30,781 nucleotides of DNA from a virus: positions 1 through 30,781 of the IMG/VR virus record IMGVR_UViG_3300042383_001339; one strand, 5' to 3'. Under the pieces are notes generated by a model. The model did not search any database. It was not told the DNA's origin and worked only from the letters and a program-made list of their open reading frames with translations. Shown in pieces: positions 1 to 30,306 of this stretch (position 1 is the first letter of the stretch; each line of letters begins with the position of its first letter). The position numbers and the translations under genes are program-made.

Positions 1-163
1 TCTTGTACTTAACGTCCAACACCAATTGTGCATTGGCTGTGAAACGAAGCAGCACTGGATAATCTTTTTGCATCATGTATTTAGTTTAGTGCATTTTTGC
101 ATCTTTGTCAACTGTTTTGTGACTTTCGTCGTTCACTGTCTATTGCAGCTTGCAGACACCCTA

Positions 164-5490: not shown

Positions 5491-6801
5491 ATGAGTTTAC
5501 CAAACAGAACCAACAGCACCAATTATGAGCATCCGCAGGAAACCAATCTGCTGAATTTGCACAGGGCAATGAGCTACAACAGTCAGGGTGAGCCAGTGTT
5601 GCGAACCACATCGGGTAGCAGTGCAACCACCGGCGATGCGTTTGGTAGACTGAGAATTGCTGCACCTTTCACACTGTTTGATAGCTTTCACCGATACCAG
5701 GACAATGCCAAAGCTGAAGTGTTTACTGCTGGCGGCGGCACCAGCACACACGACACCAACAGCAGCAGCATATTGATGGCGGTGGGCACTGCAAAAAATG
5801 ATGAAGTGATCAGAGAAACCAATCGTGTGTTTGCCTATCAACCAGGCAAAAGTTTGCAAATGATGATCACCTTCACTATGTCACCTGCCAAAACCAATCT
5901 CAGACAACGAGCTGGATTGTTTGATGCACAAAACGGTGTATATGTTCAGTTAAAAGACAATGTGTTGAGTTTTGTGTTGCGCAGTTATTCAACTGGTGTT
6001 TTGGTGGAAACTGTGGTACCACAGAGCCAATGGAATGTGGAGCGATTGGATGGAGCAGGTACCAATCCCACAGTGTTAGACATCACCAAATCACAAATTT
6101 TTTGGTTGGACATAGAATGGTTGGGTGTGGGCACAGTGCGTTGCGGATTTGTGATCAATGGTGAATTCATTCACTGTCACAGTTTTCATCATGCCAATCT
6201 GCAAACCAGCACATACATGACCACTGCCTGTTTGCCGGGCAGAGTGGAAATTACAAACGTGGACACCACCGCCAGTGCTAGCACCTACAGACAGATTTGT
6301 TTTACTGTGATCAGTGAAGGTGGGTATGAACTCAGAGGCCGACCCAGAAGCGTGGGTCACGCTTTGACTGCGCCCTATCGTATGAGCAGTCCGGGTGTCA
6401 CTTATCCACTGCTGAGCATCCGACTGAAAAGTGATCGATTGGGTGCCATTGTGGTACCTAAAAATTTCACCATAGCAGTTACTTCATCGGGCAGCTTTAG
6501 ATACGGATTGATCAGCAGAGGCGTTACATCAGGCGGGTTATGGGTTAGTGCTGGTACCGACAGTCATGTTGAATACAACTTAACAGCAACCAGTTTGTCC
6601 AGCGGCACAGTGTATGAAATTGGATACATTATCAGCAGCAATCAGAGTTCAGCCGCTCCCAGCTTGCAGGAATATCCATTCACGTTTCAACTGGAGCGAA
6701 ACACGTTCACTCCAGTTGCTTATGAGTTTATAATTGCAATGGTTTGTACTGGCAACCATCCGGACGTTTTTGCCAGTGTCAACTGGGAAGAAATTACCTA
6801 A
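5491..6801 (+). CDS. virion structural protein (tail or fibre-associated)
   Basis: A 436 aa strand-rich protein with Ser/Thr/Gly-rich composition and no membrane segment. The opening (residues 27-60, GEPVLRTTSGSSATTGDAFGRLRIA) and the jelly-roll-like body resemble structural proteins found in many large myophages, but I cannot name the exact part. It is the largest late-type plus-strand gene here; no Shine-Dalgarno site precedes the ATG, and the late box at 5478-5485 places the RNA start on it. It faces the exonuclease remnant at its 3' end. Confidence 0.65.
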   Translation: MSLPNRTNSTNYEHPQETNLLNLHRAMSYNSQGEPVLRTTSGSSATTGDAFGRLRIAAPFTLFDSFHRYQDNAKAEVFTAGGGTSTHDTNSSSILMAVGTAKNDEVIRETNRVFAYQPGKSLQMMITFTMSPAKTNLRQRAGLFDAQNGVYVQLKDNVLSFVLRSYSTGVLVETVVPQSQWNVERLDGAGTNPTVLDITKSQIFWLDIEWLGVGTVRCGFVINGEFIHCHSFHHANLQTSTYMTTACLPGRVEITNVDTTASASTYRQICFTVISEGGYELRGRPRSVGHALTAPYRMSSPGVTYPLLSIRLKSDRLGAIVVPKNFTIAVTSSGSFRYGLISRGVTSGGLWVSAGTDSHVEYNLTATSLSSGTVYEIGYIISSNQSSAAPSLQEYPFTFQLERNTFTPVAYEFIIAMVCTGNHPDVFASVNWEEIT

Positions 6802-6973: not shown

Positions 6974-7028
6974 GTAGTTCGCGGCATTGACGTGCCCAAC
7001 TACTCTAACGGTGAAAGGACCATCAGCA
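6974..7028 (+). promoter_or_regulatory. structured HNH-leader RNA element, copy 1
   Basis: Helix 1: GTAGTT/AACTAC, internal loop CGC opposite C, inner helix GGCA/TGCC, 6 nt loop. Then TCTA, then helix 2 (GGT/ACC) whose 6 nt loop GAAAGG holds the ribosome site, then TCAGC and ATG. The plan is shared with 8320-8376 and 21188-21242, with different stem sequences. Confidence 0.75.
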
Positions 7029-7760
7029 ATGATATTTATTGACGACATTTACTCACAAGAGTATTTTAATATAGTTTCTAAAGCTCAAATAAGAGCTTCT
7101 TCTCGCATCGAAGCTCGTAAATTAGTAGGTTATGTAGAGGAACATCACATCATTCCAGATTGTTTTTATGTCAATTCTAGAAAGAAAAAACAATCTATTG
7201 GTTGGCTTGACGGAAATTCAAATTCGCCAAATAATTTAGTTTATCTGACTGCAAAAGAGCATTATAGATGTCACTGGTTACTAGTGCATATGACTATACT
7301 CGATGATTGTCATGCTGATCAAGCTAAAAGATCTATGTTTGCTGCATTAATGATAATGAGCTCAATGAACAAAACACGTTACGAACTTTCTGAATCTGAT
7401 TATGCTTACGCTCGAGAAAAATATAGCGAATCTTTACGTGGAAGGAAATTGTCTAAAGAAGCTATAAGAAAACAGTTAGAGACAAAAAAATTAAACGGAA
7501 CTTTCTGTCATTCAGAAGAAACAAAAAGAAAACTGTCAAAATTTAAGAAAGGTAGCAAACTTTCACCAGAAACGATAGCTAAAAGAACAGAATCTAGACA
7601 GGCTAACAGTAAACCACAAGCTCCTAGATCAGAAGAATGGAGACGTAAAATTAGTGAGTCAGCTAAAGGACGAAAACTTTCACCAGAAACGATAGCTAAA
7701 AGAACAGAATCTAGACGAGCCAACAGACAAAATTTCTTTAGCGATTCACAAATGCTTTGA
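7029..7760 (+). CDS. HNH homing endonuclease with NUMOD3 repeats
   Basis: A 243 aa endonuclease from the ATG at 7029, which follows an AAAGGAC ribosome site and the structured leader. The HNH core is EEHHIIPDCF ... NNLVYLTAKEHYRCHWLL (about residues 36-92). The C-terminal half carries NUMOD3-type DNA-binding repeats: GRKLSKEAIRKQ, HSEETKRKLS, GSKLSPETIAKR, GRKLSPETIAKR. Two of these are encoded by an exact 43 bp direct repeat. The gene separates the exonuclease from its former 3' end and its last codons overlap the exonuclease gene by 23 bases on the opposite strand. Confidence 0.85.
   Translation: MIFIDDIYSQEYFNIVSKAQIRASSRIEARKLVGYVEEHHIIPDCFYVNSRKKKQSIGWLDGNSNSPNNLVYLTAKEHYRCHWLLVHMTILDDCHADQAKRSMFAALMIMSSMNKTRYELSESDYAYAREKYSESLRGRKLSKEAIRKQLETKKLNGTFCHSEETKRKLSKFKKGSKLSPETIAKRTESRQANSKPQAPRSEEWRRKISESAKGRKLSPETIAKRTESRRANRQNFFSDSQML
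7557..7716 (+). repeat. 43 bp exact direct repeat inside the HNH gene
   Basis: Copies at 7557-7599 and 7674-7716, 117 bases (39 codons) apart, encode the same NUMOD3 segment LSPETIAKRTESR. The perfect identity indicates recent duplication of a DNA-binding module. Confidence 0.9.
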
Positions 7761-8376: not shown

Positions 8377-9128
8377 ATGTATTTACAAAACAAATACTTA
8401 CAATGGTATTATAACATAATAAATCGTGCAAAATCAAGACATTTAGAAGATTCTGTGTACACTGAACAGCATCATATTTTGCCTAAGAGCTTGGGTGGCA
8501 ACAATTCTAAATCCAATCTTGCAACCTTAACCGGACGAGAACATTTTATATGTCATTTATTATTACCAAAATTCACAACTGGAATAGCAAAAAGTAAGAT
8601 GATACATGCTGCTTGGAGAATGTGTTGTAGAGGATCTAAGCATGACAAAGGTTTTAAAATTACCTCAACTATATATGATTTACTACGGCGACAGCGTAGT
8701 GCATATCTCCAAACATTAAAAGGGCAAAACAGCCCAATGTTCGGAAAAAAGACTGGAAGAACTTCTGCCGACTTTACAAACGATTGGAAAGAAAAAATAT
8801 CTGCAGCAAATAAAGGCCGAGTTGCTTGGAACAAAGGTGTACCTCGTACAGAAGATGAAAAAGCAAAAATGTCAGCTACACGAAAAGCAAAAGCAAAAGC
8901 AAAGGCAAAAGCAGCTGACCCAACTTGGAACTGGAATGTAAGACCAAAATGCAGTCCTGAAAAAGCACAAAAAATCAAAGAAGCCAATACTGGAAAAAGT
9001 GGGTTCATAAATTAGATCCGTTACAACGAAGATATGTTCCTCAACAAACATATGAAATATTATGTTCCCAAGGTTGGATTCCTGGTATCGGACCAAAAAT
9101 CACCAGTTTCACCAAACCACCTGTTTGA
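8377..9128 (+). CDS. HNH homing endonuclease, apparent frameshift near the 3' end
   Basis: The first frame (8377-9015, 212 aa) has the HNH core EQHHILPKSLGG ... NLATLTGREHFICHLLL, then NUMOD3-like repeats (NSPMFGKKTGRTS) and an Ala-Lys repeat. It stops at 9013-9015, but the +2 frame continues without a break as KKWVHKLDPLQRRYVPQQ and GWIPGIGPKITSFTKPPV to a stop at 9126-9128. One extra A in the run at 8993-8997 would join the two, so the gene is probably frameshifted or the read is in error. The extended frame overlaps the end of the convergent gene at 9109. It has a paralog at 21243. Confidence 0.75.
8880..8915 (+). repeat. AAAGCA hexamer tract (Lys-Ala repeat)
   Basis: About five tandem copies of a 6 bp unit code for a run of Lys-Ala in the HNH protein. 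It is probably slippage-prone and may act as a flexible DNA-contacting linker. Confidence 0.7.
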
Positions 9129-12910: not shown

Positions 12911-13465
12911 TTATTCACTAATATCTTTTAAAGTTTTTCTCCAGGCTTCCACACTCTGATGGGTGTGTCTGCACAACAATTTTTGATTTAACCGCTGTAA
13001 CCCAATAAAAGAACCATAGTAGGCAATCTTGAGAGCTCGCACCATGCTGGGCACATGATTGGGTTGTGCTCTAAACAATCTGCACACAAAGGGAATCTCG
13101 GCACTTGCAACCACTGGTACATTGTTGGCAATGTGGTCTGCTGCTACTATGTTGTAGGTTTCAGTGAAACTCACCTGCATGCCCATGTCGATCTGACTTC
13201 GAATTAACCAAATAAACTGCTCATGTGACATCCAATCATGTTCAATCAGATGATGGTTTTTTAGATACCTAAAAGTACTGCGAAGATTTTTCAAAATACT
13301 GTCACCACGTTGCTCCACCCGGCTGGAGTTGATGTGAAAATGCAACTCAAAACCCATTTCGTCGGCAAATTGAATGGCAGCGGCAGCCTGATTCAGATGA
13401 TTCTTGAATGGGCGAATGGCGCCAAAACAACTGATGTTAACGATGCTAGCAGTTTTCAATTTCAT
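12911..13465 (-). CDS. glycosyltransferase, C-terminal half
   Basis: A 184 aa frame starting MKLKTASIVNISCFGAIRP, the start of a GT-B C-terminal Rossmann domain (INxxCFGxxRPFKNH), with the nucleotide-sugar-binding end SFTETYNIVAADHIANNVPV near 120-140 (E of the ETYN motif). It lacks an N-terminal acceptor domain, which is supplied by the upstream frame with a 20-base overlap. Either two coupled genes or one gene broken by a frameshift. Confidence 0.7.
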   Translation of the reverse strand: MKLKTASIVNISCFGAIRPFKNHLNQAAAAIQFADEMGFELHFHINSSRVEQRGDSILKNLRSTFRYLKNHHLIEHDWMSHEQFIWLIRSQIDMGMQVSFTETYNIVAADHIANNVPVVASAEIPFVCRLFRAQPNHVPSMVRALKIAYYGSFIGLQRLNQKLLCRHTHQSVEAWRKTLKDISE

Positions 13466-14045
13466 AACAGTTGGGAAGGTACAGAACGTCTCGATGCAGT
13501 AATTGGTTGAGTTCACGCTGGGCACGAACACTATTGGTAGCGACAAAAATTTTTCGATTCAGGGAGTACCCGTTAAGCCACTCCATGGCAACGCCTTCGT
13601 TGGCCAAAAACGGCACTTCACTATGCAGTCGAACAATCCATTTTACGTTGGGATAAAGCGAACTAAGCTCGTTGATCTTTTCTGGAGTAGCCCAAAGTGC
13701 TTCAATAATCACCAGATTTGGTTTATGCTGAAACACCACGCGATTGATGTCGTTTCCATCAACCACCTGTTCCAGCACAGGCAAGCACTGACCAAAATTT
13801 TCACGTATCATCTTGGTCACAAACCGTACACTGTTCAACAACCCACTGCTGAGTTCAGCAGCATACTGATCACTGGTGTTCCAAACAGTGTTTCTTTTTT
13901 TCAGAACAAACAAAATTTTAGTGAGTGGCAGTGTTGTTGATGTCTTTGGCATGGCAAACTTATTTATGTTGATCCAAACAGTGTTTCTTTTTTTCAGAAC
14001 AAACAAAATTTTAGTGAGTGGCAGTGTTGTTGATGTCTTTGGCAT
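13446..14045 (-). CDS. glycosyltransferase, N-terminal half
   Basis: Begins twice: a 31-residue segment (MPKTSTTLPLTKILFVLKKR) is duplicated by a 93 bp tandem repeat, so the true start may be 14045 or 13952. The body carries the GT-B N-domain features (KPNLVIIEALWATPEKINEL, VKWIVRLHSEVPFLANEG, FVATNS) and ends at LYLPNCYEIENC, exactly where a two-domain enzyme would enter its linker. The downstream frame supplies the second domain. Probable role: glycosylating DNA, host surface or virion sugars; target unknown. Confidence 0.7.
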   Translation of the reverse strand: MPKTSTTLPLTKILFVLKKRNTVWININKFAMPKTSTTLPLTKILFVLKKRNTVWNTSDQYAAELSSGLLNSVRFVTKMIRENFGQCLPVLEQVVDGNDINRVVFQHKPNLVIIEALWATPEKINELSSLYPNVKWIVRLHSEVPFLANEGVAMEWLNGYSLNRKIFVATNSVRAQRELNQLLHRDVLYLPNCYEIENC

Positions 14046-21242: not shown

Positions 21243-21974
21243 ATGTATTTACATAACAAATATACTCGTTGGTATTTTGGTATAATCAATAATGCCCAAA
21301 ATAGAACGATTATTGGATACAGTGAAAAACACCATATCATCCCAAAAAGTCTTGGCGGTTGTAATAAAAGAAATAATCTTGTTTCTCTTACTGCTAGGGA
21401 ACATTTCATATGTCATTGGTTACTCACTAAAATGACTACTGGAAAAGATAAAAACAAAATGTGTATGGCTCTGATAATGATGGAGAAAAATCACAAAAAA
21501 CACTTTCGCTACAATTCTCCCTTGACTTCTAGAGTATATGCTTCTGTTAAAGCACAAGCAATAGAAGGGTTTAGAGAATCGGCAAAGAAATTAGTTCAAC
21601 AAGGAAAACACAATTTTCAAAAAATCGATCGTCACGGGCAGAATCATCCTAGTTTTGATCATACAGTATATATTTGGTATCATATACCTTCTAAAACAAA
21701 AATTAGTATGACTAGATACGATCTCATCAAGACATACAAATTAGGCAACGGGGACGTATGCCAAATACTTAAAGGAATACGAAAGTCAACTAAAGGTTGG
21801 ATCCTATGGGAGAAAAGACCAATTGAATATACTTGGTTTCATATTGAAACCATCACTGTAGTAGTGATGACAAAAAGTGATTTTATCAAAAAATATTCTA
21901 TATCTCGTTCTATCGTAGAAGATATGATTAATAAAAATCATTCATCAAAAGGTTGGGCGCTACAAATAGGCTAG
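21243..21974 (+). CDS. HNH homing endonuclease with IENR1-like repeats
   Basis: A 243 aa protein, close paralog of the one at 8377 (MYLHNKYTRWYFGIINNAQ against MYLQNKYLQWYYNIINRAK). HNH core: EKHHIIPKSLGG ... NLVSLTAREHFICHWLL. Two C-terminal modules (KISMTRYDLIKTYKLGNGD with KGIRKSTKGW, and TVVVMTKSDFIKKYSISRSI with SSKGWAL) look like intron-encoded nuclease repeats that bind DNA. Expressed behind a late box and the structured leader. Its stop overlaps the uvdE stop by 4 bases on the other strand. Confidence 0.85.
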   Translation: MYLHNKYTRWYFGIINNAQNRTIIGYSEKHHIIPKSLGGCNKRNNLVSLTAREHFICHWLLTKMTTGKDKNKMCMALIMMEKNHKKHFRYNSPLTSRVYASVKAQAIEGFRESAKKLVQQGKHNFQKIDRHGQNHPSFDHTVYIWYHIPSKTKISMTRYDLIKTYKLGNGDVCQILKGIRKSTKGWILWEKRPIEYTWFHIETITVVVMTKSDFIKKYSISRSIVEDMINKNHSSKGWALQIG

Positions 21975-24477: not shown

Positions 24478-24507
24478 ATGTTAGCACATCACCAGCCTAC
24501 CAGTCAA
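24478..24507 (-). promoter_or_regulatory. promoter TTGACT-18-TAACAT
   Basis: -35 24507-24502, -10 24483-24478; drives the LRW gene group. Confidence 0.65.
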
Positions 24508-25114
24508 CCACCACAACGTGTTCTGCATGTCTTTTGAACGGAGGTTTAAACAGAATGTTGGGAACCACCTGAAACGTCTTGCATCCAGCATCAAAGCAAA
24601 ATTTGGCCATCTGTTTGAAGTATACTGCACGACGATGCACTGGTCCAACGTGTATTACAGTAGGCTCCTGATTGATTTTGTGTTCTACCAAATAGGTATC
24701 TTGTTGCCAAGCCTGACGGTCTTCTGGAACACCTTTGGTATTCTCAGTCACAATCAAACTGGCATTTTCCTGGTTGAGATTGAAATTCAAAGCCAGGTCA
24801 TGACGACTGGTGTTCTTGAAATCACGAACTGTGATAATCAGGCGTTTTTTCACAGCGCCAACCACTTGTTGAATCAGACCCTGTTGTGTTTGCTCAGTGG
24901 CATAGGTAAAAAATTCATCAGTGGCTAGCACTGTGTCGTAGCGTTGGCCAACATTATAAACTGAATAGTTTAACCAACAACTGGGGGTTTGAGCAACATC
25001 AGACCCCTGAATCTGATTGCTTAAGAAATCGTAACGCTTGGCCACAAAGTCTTTATCAACGTGAGTGGCCAAGCTATCGTGCAATTTTTGAAGATATTCA
25101 GAAGATAACAACAC
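24497..25114 (-). CDS. conserved phage protein, possible methyltransferase-like fold
   Basis: A 205 aa protein from a GTG start with GAGGAG upstream. The segment YDTVLATDEFFTYATEQTQ with LIITVRDFKNT suggests a Rossmann-type domain with an acidic turn, as in SAM methyltransferases, but the glycine-rich motif I is not clear, so this is tentative. The C-terminal HVGPVHRRAVYFKQMAKFCF looks conserved. A late box and hairpin precede it. Confidence 0.5.
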   Translation of the reverse strand: MLLSSEYLQKLHDSLATHVDKDFVAKRYDFLSNQIQGSDVAQTPSCWLNYSVYNVGQRYDTVLATDEFFTYATEQTQQGLIQQVVGAVKKRLIITVRDFKNTSRHDLALNFNLNQENASLIVTENTKGVPEDRQAWQQDTYLVEHKINQEPTVIHVGPVHRRAVYFKQMAKFCFDAGCKTFQVVPNILFKPPFKRHAEHVVVVDW

Positions 25115-25144: not shown

Positions 25145-25152
25145 TATTTATG
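25145..25152 (-). promoter_or_regulatory. late promoter-like box CATAAATA
   Basis: Seven of eight matches, abutting the hairpin above; lies at the very end of the cyclase gene. Confidence 0.5.
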
Positions 25153-27109
25153 TATTTGGTGTGTTTTCCTCCATGTGCTTGATTTTCGAGGTCCTTATGC
25201 GGCTCAGCATGTCAGTATAGTATTGTTGCAGAACGCCAGAATTCTTCAACTCTTTGCAGAGTTTTAGTGCGGCATCATGTTTGTGTGCATAATACAGTTC
25301 CAGCATTTTGATGTGTTGCTCTATTACCATAGAGTACTGCACTTCGTCCAATACCGTAAAGACTCTCATAAATTCACCACCTTCCAATGAAACTGTATCC
25401 AGTTCCACACAGCGGAATTCATCACGCACCTGAGCAGCGGTATGTTCTCCAATCAGGATGTTTACACTGTAATGTTTACACAAATTTTCCAAGTTATCTG
25501 CTGTACGGACAGTGGTTCCCATGGCAGTATAATTGAATTTTCTACGACTACCAGTGTTGCCTATCACCGCAGGGCCAGTATTGATGCCAATATCCAAACA
25601 CAGTCGAGACTCTTCTGGGGCCATCAAAGCATTCATTCGACTCACCTGCGCCAGCATATCCATGGCGCCGCGGACCGCTTGGATGGCATGTTTCTCCACA
25701 TCCAGCGGAGCGTTCCAAAAAGCCACCACGCCGTCGCCAATCAGTTTGTCCACCGTGCCAAAGTTTCTAGTTATAGCCGGCAACATCTGATCCATGTATC
25801 CATGCACCAATTTCACCAGTCCCTCGCTATTTCCTCGATAGCTATTAAGTATACCAGAAAAATCTCTGAGATCGGCATAAAGCACAGTGATCTCCTTGAG
25901 TTCTCCATCGGTTTTGATGGCCGCTGGGTTTTGTTTGAGTTTTTTTAGCACAGAAGATCCCACACAATCACCAAATTTTCTATTAATACTCCATTCAGCA
26001 CTGCGTTTACGAGCCAAATGATAATAAAACGTCAGAGCAAAAACACTGGTACTGCTCAGTGTGGGCCAAACCCAATCCACTGCCAGATCACTGGCATTAA
26101 ACAGCATCCAGGCACCCAGGATCACCACTCCCACTCCACCAGCATACACCGGAATACAGGCGTAGGGGGTATTTTGTTTGGCTGCTTTCAGGATGCTGGC
26201 GATAATCAAAATGCTAATCAACATTTCCAGCATGTCAGCCCAGGTGGGAGTTACTACGTTGTTACGATCAAACAAACTCTGAATAAACTGAGCTTGTACC
26301 TGATGATTTCTACGAGCACCAGTTGGTGTTTGTACCCAGTTGTTGACCTGCTGTGTGGCCACACCCACTATGACAATCTTGTTTTTCACAGCACTGAAGT
26401 CTGTGCTAGTGGCATTGATGGTGACAAAATCATGATTGAATTTAATCCTCCATCTATTGTTGTTGGGCACAATCCAGGGTTTGACTCCAGTCAGATCCAC
26501 AGTGTGAGTATTGTTTTGATGCTGTATGCGAGCTTTGGCGTCACCGGTTAATACTCTAAGAGCTTCTATGCCCAAACTGTAATAAGCACGGTCATCATTT
26601 ACAGTCACCAGATCCATACGTCTCACTACTCCATCAGGATCTGCGATGGCGTTGTTAAAGCCCACCGCAGCCGCACTTTGCGAGAGTTCCGGAACTGGAT
26701 TATCCACATCAAAATCTCTTACTTGTCGAGCCAGCACAACTCCATTGTTCAGAATTGCATTGGCAAAAACACCGTCAGCTTTGGCTAGGTCCGGTTCTTT
26801 AAATAAATCAGCAAACACAATAACCCCAGCACCAGATTCGCGTAATTTTTTTACTAGATCAGCCAGATGGCTGCGAGCCCAAGGCCATTGGCCCTTTTTC
26901 TTTGTGTCTTCTTCAGTGACTTCCACGATTACTACGTCTAATGCTTTGCTGTGTGGAACAAACCACTGAATTAGATCGTTGCCCCACAGAGCCAGACGAT
27001 CAGTGATCTCCTGTTGACCATATCTCAGATACAATAGGGCCAAACTCAGCAGTGTTACAAACACTGCAAACCTAAAGCGATACCAGATATTCCAAAATTT
27101 AGATTTCAT
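25148..27109 (-). CDS. membrane nucleotide cyclase with CHASE2 sensor
   Basis: A 653 aa protein (from the M at 27109 with TTAGGT upstream; an ATG at 27142 is also open). Order: membrane segment (about 13-31), extracytoplasmic CHASE2 domain (about 32-285, with LDVVIVEVTEEDTKKKGQWP and NRWRIKFN), three membrane segments (about 295-375), and a class III cyclase domain (about 425-610). Both metal Asp are present (YADLRDF, LIGDGVVAFW), as is the substrate Lys (DKLIGDG). The transition-state Asn and Arg are exchanged (GTTVRTADNLE where GDSVNLASRLE is usual). Either an altered or an inactive cyclase; very unusual in a phage. Confidence 0.9.
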   Translation of the reverse strand: MKSKFWNIWYRFRFAVFVTLLSLALLYLRYGQQEITDRLALWGNDLIQWFVPHSKALDVVIVEVTEEDTKKKGQWPWARSHLADLVKKLRESGAGVIVFADLFKEPDLAKADGVFANAILNNGVVLARQVRDFDVDNPVPELSQSAAAVGFNNAIADPDGVVRRMDLVTVNDDRAYYSLGIEALRVLTGDAKARIQHQNNTHTVDLTGVKPWIVPNNNRWRIKFNHDFVTINATSTDFSAVKNKIVIVGVATQQVNNWVQTPTGARRNHQVQAQFIQSLFDRNNVVTPTWADMLEMLISILIIASILKAAKQNTPYACIPVYAGGVGVVILGAWMLFNASDLAVDWVWPTLSSTSVFALTFYYHLARKRSAEWSINRKFGDCVGSSVLKKLKQNPAAIKTDGELKEITVLYADLRDFSGILNSYRGNSEGLVKLVHGYMDQMLPAITRNFGTVDKLIGDGVVAFWNAPLDVEKHAIQAVRGAMDMLAQVSRMNALMAPEESRLCLDIGINTGPAVIGNTGSRRKFNYTAMGTTVRTADNLENLCKHYSVNILIGEHTAAQVRDEFRCVELDTVSLEGGEFMRVFTVLDEVQYSMVIEQHIKMLELYYAHKHDAALKLCKELKNSGVLQQYYTDMLSRIRTSKIKHMEENTPNT

Positions 27110-27139
27110 ACCTAATTGTAACATAATTAGTTTGTGATT

Positions 27140-27147
27140 CATAAATA
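27140..27147 (+). promoter_or_regulatory. late promoter-like box CATAAATA, leaderless
   Basis: Box, exactly 5 nt, then the ATG of the phosphoesterase (27153). A T4-type late RNA would begin on the ATG. Confidence 0.55.
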
Positions 27148-27152
27148 TTTTT

Positions 27153-27890
27153 ATGCCATTTCATAACCACTTTGCATTTGATTTGATCAGTGATTTGTAC
27201 CTGAAAGATTGGCCGCAGACTGATTGGAGTATCGAACCCACCAGCTTGATCGCAGTGGTGGCTGGAGATCTCAGTTCAGATCTAGATCACACTGTTCATG
27301 AACTCAAAAAGATGGCAAAACATTATCGTCAGGTTTTATATATTGACGGTGATCTGGAACACAATCAGAGTCTGGAAAAAGTCAACACAAACCGAGATTA
27401 TCTAGCTCAACAACTAAAAAACACCAAGAATATCACATACATGCACGAGCATGTACTGATTATCAATGATGTGGCTTTTATTGCGGCTAATCTATGGTGG
27501 AGTCCAGGCGATTCAAACACCAATATCAATGATGATACATGGTTTAAAGAAATGCAGATGCTTACTTTGCACCACGAAGATCTAAACTATTTGCGTTATA
27601 CTGTGCAAAGAATTCAGTTGTGCCCGGATATTAAAAAATGTGTATTGGTAAGTCACACTGTTCCAAATCGAGAACTAATACTGGGCGGATCTGATGAAAA
27701 CCTAGCCAGTGATGCCAGCGAGTGGGTTGAGATTGAAGATCATACCGGAAAGATCAAAACCTGGTGTTTTGGGCACTGGAATCGTTCTGTGAAACTCAAG
27801 GTCAACAACTGTGAATATGTGAGTAACCCCAAAGGAAAACCCAGTGATTCACTGGGTTTAAAATATCATCCGTTGAGAGTGGTCGTTTAA
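27153..27890 (+). CDS. calcineurin-like metallophosphoesterase, degenerate site
   Basis: A 245 aa protein of the calcineurin fold. FDLISDLYL stands for the usual DxH motif with H replaced by Y; GDLSSD is the second motif; DGDLEHN replaces GNHD; LVSHTVPN keeps its His; CFGHWN replaces GHxH with N. Several metal ligands are thus changed. It may bind rather than hydrolyse a phosphoester, or use fewer metals. It lies next to the cyclase, divergently transcribed, an arrangement that suggests (but does not prove) cyclic nucleotide turnover. Its end overlaps clpS by 4 bases. Confidence 0.75.
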   Translation: MPFHNHFAFDLISDLYLKDWPQTDWSIEPTSLIAVVAGDLSSDLDHTVHELKKMAKHYRQVLYIDGDLEHNQSLEKVNTNRDYLAQQLKNTKNITYMHEHVLIINDVAFIAANLWWSPGDSNTNINDDTWFKEMQMLTLHHEDLNYLRYTVQRIQLCPDIKKCVLVSHTVPNRELILGGSDENLASDASEWVEIEDHTGKIKTWCFGHWNRSVKLKVNNCEYVSNPKGKPSDSLGLKYHPLRVVV

Positions 27891-28198
27891 GTGTGCAGAT
27901 CTACTTTGACCACCAACGGGTAACCGTGCAATCTGGCTAGTGTGAGCACTTCGATGGTTTTCTGTTCAGCTAATTCATAGGGTAAAATTGCAACCACGCA
28001 CTGACCCACGTCGTGTACCCGTTCAGCAATATCTGCTGCACCATCAACATCGTAATCAAAAATTTCTATTAGACTAGTGATAACAAAGTCAAAACTAGTC
28101 ACGTCATCATTTACATAGATGACTTTGTACATGGGAGGTTCAGCAATGCTGGTGTTGATTGCTATCTGAGTTTTTTCAATTGTGTGAGTATTAGGCAT
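27887..28198 (-). CDS. clpS: ClpS adaptor
   Basis: A 103 aa N-degron adaptor. Diagnostic residues: PPMYKVIYVNDDVTSFDFVI (N and D of the N-terminal-residue pocket), VHDVGQCVVA (pocket His), LPYELAEQK and ARLHGYPLVVKV at the C-terminus. In bacteria it delivers N-degron proteins to ClpAP. The window has ClpX but no ClpA, so it would either steer host ClpA or be redirected to the phage ClpXP. Downstream of Hsp20 and transcribed with it, past a GC-rich hairpin. Confidence 0.93.
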   Translation of the reverse strand: MPNTHTIEKTQIAINTSIAEPPMYKVIYVNDDVTSFDFVITSLIEIFDYDVDGAADIAERVHDVGQCVVAILPYELAEQKTIEVLTLARLHGYPLVVKVDLHT

Positions 28199-28213
28199 AG
28201 GGTATTTGTTAGA

Positions 28214-28233
28214 GCGGGGGCTTCAGCCCCCGC
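28214..28233. terminator. GC-rich hairpin between hsp20 and clpS
   Basis: GCGGGGGC/GCCCCCGC with a 4 nt loop, very stable. No U tract follows on the minus strand, so it may reduce rather than end read-through to clpS or protect the hsp20 mRNA. Confidence 0.6.
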
Positions 28234-28241
28234 GGTGTAAT

Positions 28242-28691
28242 TTATCGAACAAAGTTAATAGCCACAGTACGCGGCTTGAGCGCATCAGGAAGCCGACGTT
28301 CCAGATCAATGGTCAAAATACCATCTTTCACCGTTGCGCCAACCACTTCCATATAGTCCAGCAACCGCCATTTGTGTGAAAATCTGCGGCGGCTGAGACC
28401 ACGATGCAAATAAACTGCTTCTGAAGAGCCAGTTTCCTGAATTTCTCCAACAACATTCAGGACGCCGTCACTAACAGTGACAGTGAGATCCTGTTCACCA
28501 AAACCAGCCACAGCAATTTCAATGCTCTGACGTTCCTCGTTGTGGTAAATCATGTTGAAGGGAGGATAGTTGTTACGAGTGTTTGCGCTCGTATTGGCCC
28601 AACTTTCCAGTGTGTTGAACAGGTGATCCATTCCGATCACCCAGCGACCCAAATCAGGGTTCAGATTAGCAGTAGTCAAAAAATTACTCAT
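28242..28691 (-). CDS. Hsp20 (alpha-crystallin) small heat-shock protein
   Basis: A 149 aa small chaperone that holds unfolded proteins. The signature YPPFNMIYHNEERQSIEIAV, the A-G-F-x-E-x-D-L motif (AGFGEQDLTVTV), DGVLNVVGE, RRFSHKWRL and DGILTIDLER are all present, and the family C-terminal KPRTVAINF resembles the I-x-I tail. Reads with AAAGGAGTT. Probably the late unit's second gene product; tail and capsid assembly could benefit. Confidence 0.9.
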   Translation of the reverse strand: MSNFLTTANLNPDLGRWVIGMDHLFNTLESWANTSANTRNNYPPFNMIYHNEERQSIEIAVAGFGEQDLTVTVSDGVLNVVGEIQETGSSEAVYLHRGLSRRRFSHKWRLLDYMEVVGATVKDGILTIDLERRLPDALKPRTVAINFVR

Positions 28692-28722
28692 TGTTTTAAC
28701 TCCTTTTAAAGCAAGTTATTTT

Positions 28723-28751
28723 TATGGGAGGCCTGTTAAGCACCTCCCATA
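28723..28751 (-). promoter_or_regulatory. hairpin next to the hsp20 late promoter
   Basis: TATGGGAGG/CCTCCCATA, 9 bp, loop of 11 nt. The predicted late start (28746) lies in the 5' arm, leaving four pairs. Its G-rich arm mimics a ribosome site but is 50 nt from the ATG. Confidence 0.55.
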
Positions 28752-28759
28752 TATTTATA
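28752..28759 (-). promoter_or_regulatory. late promoter TATAAATA
   Basis: Exact late box for hsp20, adjacent to the hairpin above. Confidence 0.75.
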
Positions 28760-28787
28760 CTAACACAATCTAAAACTATAATTCAAG

Positions 28788-29036
28788 CTAATTTTCTGTT
28801 TTGTCGTTTTTGTTAACCATTTCATCAATGCGATTGCGTTTCCTCATTCTGGCCAGTGCTTGGCCTCGGGCTCGACGACGAATCTCACTGGGCTTGACGT
28901 AGAACTCTTTCTTTTTGAGATCCTGCAGAACACCCTCATTCTGCATTTTCTTCTTGAGTTTGCGTAAAGCTCTTTCAATATCACCATTCTGTACCTCTAC
29001 CACAATTCCTTGTGGAAGACCATTCTTATCTCTCAT
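28788..29036 (-). CDS. rpsU: ribosomal protein bS21
   Basis: An 82 aa protein with the bS21 plan: QGIVVEVQNGDIERALRKLK then FYVKPSEIRRRARGQALARM, ending in an acidic tail. bS21 binds near the anti-Shine-Dalgarno end of 16S RNA and aids initiation; phage copies are known from huge phages and could bias ribosomes to phage mRNA. It overlaps the clpX stop (ATGA), so translation is coupled to clpX. Confidence 0.93.
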   Translation of the reverse strand: MRDKNGLPQGIVVEVQNGDIERALRKLKKKMQNEGVLQDLKKKEFYVKPSEIRRRARGQALARMRKRNRIDEMVNKNDKTEN

Positions 29037-30274
29037 TTTGCTTTCATCACCTTGGTTGATTTAGTTTGTTTTTGAAACATGATCGGCTCAGCACCAGCAG
29101 AAAAAACCTCCGCTGTAAAACAGATCCGATCAATCTTGTTTTGTTTATACTCAGGAATTTTAAATAGATACGGAGTTAGCCGCTGTTCTATGATGCTTCT
29201 TAAAGCCCGTGCGCCAGTTTTCATCACAATAGCGTGTTCAGCTATGGCATTCAGAGCTTCTGGAGCAAAATCAACAGAGATACCATCGGTTTCAAAATAA
29301 AACCGATACTGCTCTATTAGATTGTGCTTGGTTTCACTCAAAACTTTCACCAGATCATCGATGGCCAACGCTTGTGTATGCACAGTAACAGGGAATCTGC
29401 CCACAAATTCTGGAATCATACCATAACGTATTAGATCTTCATTGGTAGCGCCAGTGGTGTCCGATTTGAGTTCCACAGTTTTGTCGAAACCAATTTTATG
29501 ATCACGATTGCGTTTGTTCACAATGTCCTGCAAACCTACAAATGCCCCACTGGCTATGAATAATATACTACCGGTATTGATTTCCACGCTACTATGACCT
29601 GGGTGTTTTTTGTTGGAATCAGTGGGGACGCTCACTATTGCTCCCTCGACCATTTTAAGTAAGGCCTGCTGAACCCCTTCGCCACTAATATCCCTATTAG
29701 CACTGGCGTTTTCGTTCTTTTTCCCAATCTTGTCCACTTCATCCAAGAACACAATTCCACGTTGTGTTTTTTCAATATCACCATCGGCTGCTGAAAGCAA
29801 TCGACTAATTACAGATTCTACGTCGTCACCAACGTACCCAGTCTCAGTTAAACTAGTAGCGTCTGCGATTATGAATGGCACATCCAGGTATTCTGCTATA
29901 GTTTTGGCTAGTAGAGTCTTACCACTGCCAGTGGGCCCCAACATCAGTATGTTGCTTTTTTCCACGTTGACTGAACTAGAGTAAAACAATCTTTTGTAAT
30001 GGTTTGCTACACCAACACTCAGTGTTATTTTGGCTTGATCTTGCCCAATCACATGCTGATCCAGGTACTGCTTGATTTTCATAGGATTAGTATGTTTAGC
30101 TGTTTTTTTGTCTTTTTTTACCTCAGCATTTTTTTGATCTATCAAAAGATTTTTACAACGTATAACACACTCGTCGCATATAGCGTGTGCTCCGTTCACA
30201 ATTAGCTTATTAACTTCATTGCGTGTTTTGTCACAAAAGCCACAAAAATTTGGAATAGCTGAGTCTTTGTTCAT
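29033..30274 (-). CDS. clpX: ATP-dependent Clp protease ATPase subunit ClpX
   Basis: A 413 aa AAA+ unfoldase from M at 30274. In order: zinc domain (CGFC near 11-14 and CDEC near 33-36), Walker A GPTGSGKT, pore loop TGYVGDD, Walker B IVFLDEVDKIG, IGF loop KIGFDK that docks ClpP, box VII arginine GMIPEFVGRFP, and sensor II KTGARALRSII. All catalytic parts are intact and the length matches bacterial ClpX. It heads the clpX-rpsU unit and would pair with the phage ClpP at 19995. Confidence 0.97.
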   Translation of the reverse strand: MNKDSAIPNFCGFCDKTRNEVNKLIVNGAHAICDECVIRCKNLLIDQKNAEVKKDKKTAKHTNPMKIKQYLDQHVIGQDQAKITLSVGVANHYKRLFYSSSVNVEKSNILMLGPTGSGKTLLAKTIAEYLDVPFIIADATSLTETGYVGDDVESVISRLLSAADGDIEKTQRGIVFLDEVDKIGKKNENASANRDISGEGVQQALLKMVEGAIVSVPTDSNKKHPGHSSVEINTGSILFIASGAFVGLQDIVNKRNRDHKIGFDKTVELKSDTTGATNEDLIRYGMIPEFVGRFPVTVHTQALAIDDLVKVLSETKHNLIEQYRFYFETDGISVDFAPEALNAIAEHAIVMKTGARALRSIIEQRLTPYLFKIPEYKQNKIDRICFTAEVFSAGAEPIMFQKQTKSTKVMKAK

Positions 30275-30306
30275 GCTGTTATTTAACAAAAATCTTCATT
30301 CCGTCG

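Follow-up and report, generated by a model that had tools for sequence, protein, structure and literature searches.

The C1 domain of mammalian adenylyl cyclases is a class III domain that lacks the NxxxR pair of catalytic residues. The same pair is absent (T/K) from NeoR of the chytrid heterodimeric rhodopsin guanylyl cyclases, which has no activity by itself and functions as part of a heterodimer, and restoring both residues did not bring its activity back (PMC12264004). More than the pair may therefore be lost in NeoR-like proteins. In class III dimers, the metal-binding Asp residues are provided by one protomer and Asn and Arg by the other, and a mixed dimer such as NeoR/RGC retains one complete site (PMC12264004). 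The mycobacterial cyclases Ma1120 and Rv1900c, which carry Ala and His, respectively, in place of the catalytic Asn, were shown to be active, Ma1120 with its Arg retained (PMC4215837, PMC4886424).

In phages, curli cassettes that include FecR as well as an adenylate cyclase have already been described for pelagiphages (PMC9599517), and the phage receptor cyclases in the literature that we found are solely putative enzymes of such cassettes; the word "cyclase" is absent from the main text of an earlier pelagimyophage paper and of the Melnitz paper. The initial annotation of the locus studied here had regarded a full membrane receptor cyclase as very rare in phages, a view that has to be abandoned given that relatives are encoded in at least 597 IMG/VR stretches and in cultured isolates such as HTVC008M (AGE60353.1) and Melnitz (QZI95054.1), whose group corresponds to phrog_35576.

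The window, that is the whole stretch of 30,781 bases analysed here, is one entire metagenomic IMG/VR virus record. Its gene content, which includes a virion structural protein with related cyanophage counterparts, seven tRNAs, and ClpP, ClpX, ClpS, Hsp20 and bS21 (Pfam and PHROG matches), marks it as a piece of a larger phage. Its cyclase-like gene is real and maintained; the product belongs to a known phage protein family, is probably non-catalytic and is encoded at an unusual locus. The gene lies outside a curli cassette and opposite a phosphoesterase gene that also lacks metal-site residues, and both genes are constrained.

Architecture and relatives of the phage cyclase

The CHASE2 class III cyclase-like gene (25148..27109, minus strand) encodes 653 aa. 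Its ORF is unbroken from 25148 to 27142 (664 aa, the numbering used here for residues), and the alternative start at 27109 (Met12) agrees with the start of the close relative described below. An N-terminal hydrophobic segment is followed by CHASE2, more hydrophobic segments, the class III cyclase domain and a helical tail. The CHASE2 sensor domain comprises residues 34-313 (26204..27043, minus strand; Pfam PF05226, E 4.8e-38) and is flanked on either side by segments with high hydropathy, at about residues 19-41 before it and 296-318 and 330-355 after it (26006..27088, minus strand), with one more reaching up to about residue 379 by inspection. Residues 415-595 form the cyclase domain (25358..25900, minus strand; PF00211, Guanylate_cyc, E 2.8e-13), for which AlphaFold2 predicts a well-formed model (pLDDT 93) with adenylyl and guanylyl cyclases as the nearest solved folds in Foldseek (E down to 3e-16).

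The cyclases of HTVC008M and Melnitz, which like the window protein combine CHASE2 with a class III cyclase and come from T4-like phages, are 26-31% identical to it over most of its length. In the tree, its CHASE2 domain clusters with phage CHASE2 domains, away from the bacterial rows. The sole close relative found is located on a 40.9-kb contig (IMGVR_UViG_3300005805_000173, hereafter L023) and shares with the window 74% identity in the cyclase, 80% in the phosphoesterase, 79% in ClpX and 91% over cyclase residues 300-385. A scan with the clade-specific peptide DGVVAFWNAP returned L023's contig only, and a wider A1-based scan for clade members found none. A further candidate from a motif scan (L187) was rejected as a chance match.

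Loss of the catalytic pair

Both metal-binding Asp residues (D424 and D470) and the substrate Lys (K466) are retained (25733..25873, minus strand), as the initial annotation had described. The altered stretch (25493..25516, minus strand) has the catalytic Asn replaced by R546 (codon 25507-25505) and the Arg by N550 (codon 25495-25493), and additionally Thr for Asp at the second substrate residue (D543T), a change that had been overlooked. The substrate pair is still Lys with Asp or Thr: the window has K466 and T543, a Thr also seen at this position in certain cyclases (PMC4215837), whereas L023 has Asp. At the six catalytic columns the window thus reads D-K-D-T-R-N and L023 D-K-D-D-K-Q, whereas D-K-D-D-N-R was found in 83 viral and 80 bacterial rows and D-K-D-D-S-R in 19 viral rows, counts that cover all cyclase hits fetched to that point and are not independent samples because they include overlapping records and sets picked by similarity. 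Two bacterial rows deviate at the Lys column only, and jumbo-phage loci fetched later added five S/R contigs and two N/R contigs. The loss of Asn and Arg thus stands, whereas the exact R/N exchange is limited to this record and was rejected as a conserved trait, L023 having K and Q. What the two sequences share is a basic residue in place of the Asn and an amide residue in place of the Arg, an arrangement absent from every fetched row outside the window and L023; it is suggestive, but two sequences are insufficient to prove a selected chemistry in it.

A sequence or assembly error in the motif, which had been named beforehand as a finding that would speak against the exchange, was considered since the window rests on one metagenomic record. 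Such an error is very unlikely, to the point of being negligible, because L023, at 74% identity, has K and Q at both places with D543 kept, and several independent base changes would be required.

The replacement is accompanied by further divergence. Only 38 of 61 family-invariant positions of the catalytic domain are retained in the window (38-39 across the window and L023), compared with 56-61 in canonical rows and 40-48 in S/R rows, and the stem branch of the two sequences in the catalytic-domain tree is long (2.69). In contrast to the pelagimyophage cyclases, which keep N and R, and to the Melnitz clade, which keeps S and R, the window keeps neither. The phage CHASE2 cyclases with Ser for Asn and a kept Arg (L001, L200, L214, L228, L246, L254 and others; VSTAARIE in Melnitz) form one side of a branch in the same tree (SH-aLRT 100). 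Descent of the window cyclase from this clade, in which the Asn was already lost, was unsupported by positions 463, 465, 474, 476, 529 and 536, at which it has N/R-type letters, but the AU test did not reject such a descent (p 0.33), its placement being unsure because of the long branches.

Selection was assessed from the window and L023 by the Nei-Gojobori method; dN/dS was 0.094 for the cyclase gene and 0.066 for its catalytic core, similar to neighbouring genes, and 0.105 for the phosphoesterase gene, all values being rough because dS is near saturation. Both genes are under purifying selection. Given that invariant positions are lost and the stem is long, yet dN/dS is low and the predicted fold well formed, the protein is maintained while its reaction is probably lost or changed.

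We hypothesize that the gene encodes a pseudo-cyclase, a conserved CHASE2 receptor that would sense or pair rather than catalyse as a homodimer, and assign this reading a probability of about 0.58. Its direct basis is the sequence, the loss of the pair in both members, the purifying selection and the make-up of the locus in relatives. The cytosolic class III domain is predicted to fold and would probably bind metal-nucleotide, and a homodimer would be unable to complete cyclisation for lack of Asn and Arg, the residues by which the ribose is positioned and the transition state stabilised. We infer that the gene is kept for a non-catalytic job, possibly as an inner-membrane sensor or scaffold, or alternatively to supply the metal-binding half when paired with a complete phage or host cyclase. 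The replacement of the pair in both known members (R/N and K/Q) argues for this reading, as do the neighbouring phosphoesterase without metal-site residues, which is nonetheless constrained, and the presence, at the same locus in relatives, of cyclase pieces incapable of cyclase activity. The initial annotation had suggested that the protein might be inactive, and the replacement of Asn and Arg in the window and L023 makes a loss of catalysis as a homodimer probable. Inactivity is, however, not provable from sequence alone, because the loss of Asn is tolerated in Ma1120 and Rv1900c, both of which likewise have the catalytic Asn replaced. A purely structural pseudo-enzyme, moreover, need not retain the metal Asp and Lys, the shared basic/amide pattern could reflect a changed chemistry instead of a lost one, and the clade is defined by two sequences.

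In a second reading, the cyclase would be active with its chemistry moved, the basic residue being shifted forward and the amide backward in the sequence by one turn of the helix each, so that the basic residue comes first. The displaced residues would still hold the triphosphate and ribose and, together with K466 and T543, might slowly produce cAMP or another cyclic nucleotide. R546 and N550 are placed one turn apart on a single helix of the AlphaFold2 model (model residues 162 and 166, helix 159-174), the basic/amide pattern is common to both members despite different residues, the metal Asp and Lys are kept, and the catalytic core is strongly constrained. Two sequences with conservative exchanges are nevertheless weak evidence, many further invariant positions are lost, and no fetched row outside the clade has this arrangement, so that we consider a moved chemistry unlikely.

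With regard to pairing, the window protein resembles NeoR in being a class III domain without the NxxxR pair, but its sensor domain is unrelated, and no gene for a partner is known in its case. The initial annotation had proposed that the protein might block host cyclases by heterodimers. Such a dominant-negative subunit, pairing with the CHASE2 cyclases of the host and reducing its cAMP in the course of infection, would be consistent with the predicted retention of a dimerising-domain fold and with the relatedness of the bacterial CHASE2 cyclases. The proposal is weakened by the architecture of class III dimers: since metal Asp and Asn/Arg come from different protomers, pairing with a canonical cyclase should leave one site complete, made of the window Asp and the partner's N and R. 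Pairing is also uncertain because of the approximately 30% identity to bacterial cyclases, and we regard a blocking of host cyclases as quite improbable.

The neighbouring phosphoesterase

VPS29-type proteins are metallophosphoesterase-fold scaffolds with an altered metal site, and Rv0805 is a cyclic-nucleotide phosphodiesterase. The gene next to the pseudo-cyclase candidate encodes a calcineurin-like phosphoesterase (27153..27890, plus strand; phrog_1649, 1.9e-16) and is oriented divergently, 43 bp from the cyclase start at 27109. Its fold is supported by the phrog_1649 match and by a Foldseek match to PptH (E 8e-9); the AlphaFold2 model has a pLDDT of 89, with PptH, Dbr1 and GpdQ as the nearest folds, followed at a lower level by Rv0805. 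In place of the metal motifs DxH, GD, GNxEH, H and GHxH, the window has DLY, GD, GDLEH, H and GHWN. All metal motifs are intact in 57 of 63 unique family members, with the window and L023 counted among the 63, and one more member differs at one place. DLY, GDLEH and GHWN are shared with L023, and the copy of a further relative (L025) is more degenerate. The earlier description of a degenerate, divergently encoded phosphoesterase was therefore confirmed.

Like VPS29-type scaffolds, the neighbour has a phosphoesterase fold with an altered metal site, and VPS29 is among its Foldseek matches, although its closest solved folds are PptH, Dbr1, GpdQ and Rv0805. A writer-eraser pair of cyclase and phosphoesterase would be an attractive hypothesis, but in most relatives whose phosphoesterase is intact, no full cyclase is encoded next to it.

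Directly before the phosphoesterase start in L023 (about 6394-6401), a T4-late-promoter-like element, TATAAATA, was observed, the window equivalent of which is CATAAATA (about 27137-27144).

The locus in related phages

The syntenic block of ClpS, Hsp20, bS21 and ClpX (27887..30289, minus strand) is characteristic of the phage clade and anchors the locus. The order ClpX-S21-Hsp20-ClpS followed by the divergent phosphoesterase was found again, with a few gaps, in 80 further contigs, 77 of which encode a stand-alone protein of about 120-140 aa opposite the phosphoesterase; two of the remaining three stop at the contig edge, and one (L206) has a CHASE2-only protein. The stand-alone protein corresponds to the C-terminal segment of the phage cyclase, beginning right after the N/R helix (profile-profile match with a probability of 99.6%, E 1.3e-24, 115 columns); its homologous region in the window comprises the C-terminal end of the cyclase domain and the helical tail (25148..25470, minus strand). 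Five records that carry the tail gene (G010-G014, 209-353 kb) contained no cyclase domain, and the tail protein therefore seems to be independent of a phage cyclase. That it derives directly from a cyclase of the window type was unsupported by profile scores, since the tail profile matched other phage cyclases far better (E 6e-36 for that of L036) than the window's (3e-8).

Examples of the tail protein are located at L025:6784-7146 (plus strand) and L214:9598-10065 (minus strand); the former had no PHROG match and only a sub-threshold match in Pfam (DUF1548). The CHASE2-only membrane protein of L206 (8476-9705, minus strand) occupies the same locus, and its record of 169.5 kb contained no cyclase domain.

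Relatives of the cyclase are mostly located in curli-FecR cassettes, and CsgG and FecR were both present in 41 of the 49 phage cyclase loci with enough flank. Unlike these pelagimyophage- and Melnitz-type loci, the window's cyclase does not sit with CsgG and FecR: neither csgF, csgG, curlin nor FecR was found beside it, the loci of the window and L023 gave no curli or FecR matches, and CsgG was absent from both records as a whole, both being genome fragments. A complete cyclase gene follows beyond the tail gene and a curli cassette in L200, L214, L228, L246, L253 and L254, and also in L255, but there on the other strand. Because the cyclase of the former six is encoded past the curli genes without a change of strand, a single deletion would give the gene order of the window, and the gene may have arrived at its locus by a loss of the curli cassette, although the trees do not place it firmly. 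That it is merely a decaying leftover of such a deletion, left beside the phosphoesterase with both genes drifting, would agree with these six loci and with the absence of CsgG from the window and L023's record. Both records are, however, incomplete genomes, so that curli genes may sit elsewhere, and the 653 codons form an uninterrupted frame in the window and in L023 at a dN/dS close to 0.1, catalytic core included, which makes drift highly improbable.

The loss of the catalytic pair, the loss of the phosphoesterase metal site and the keeping of cyclase fragments on their own suggest a selected function of non-catalytic parts. We raise as a rather doubtful further reading that the phosphoesterase-side locus of large phages might hold a family of non-catalytic receptor-cyclase parts, namely a full-length pseudo-cyclase, CHASE2 alone and the C-terminal piece alone, which would re-wire or regulate cyclic-nucleotide signalling without making the signal. 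If true, this would be a phage device for signalling interference made of disabled enzymes. The recurrence of non-enzymes derived from cyclases at one locus in any case poses a question open to testing.

Further genes of the window

A 205-aa protein of unassigned family is encoded 33 bp downstream of the cyclase (24497..25114, minus strand); it had no Pfam or PHROG match and was present in the window and L023 only. By eye, the ORFs at 343-990, 1593-2240, 6987-7760, 8377-9015 and 21243-21974 encode putative HNH-type or similar homing endonucleases with NUMOD-like motif repeats. The ORF at 13446-14045 (minus strand) has a tandem duplication near its start, in which MPKTSTTLPLTKILFVLKKRNTVW is present twice.
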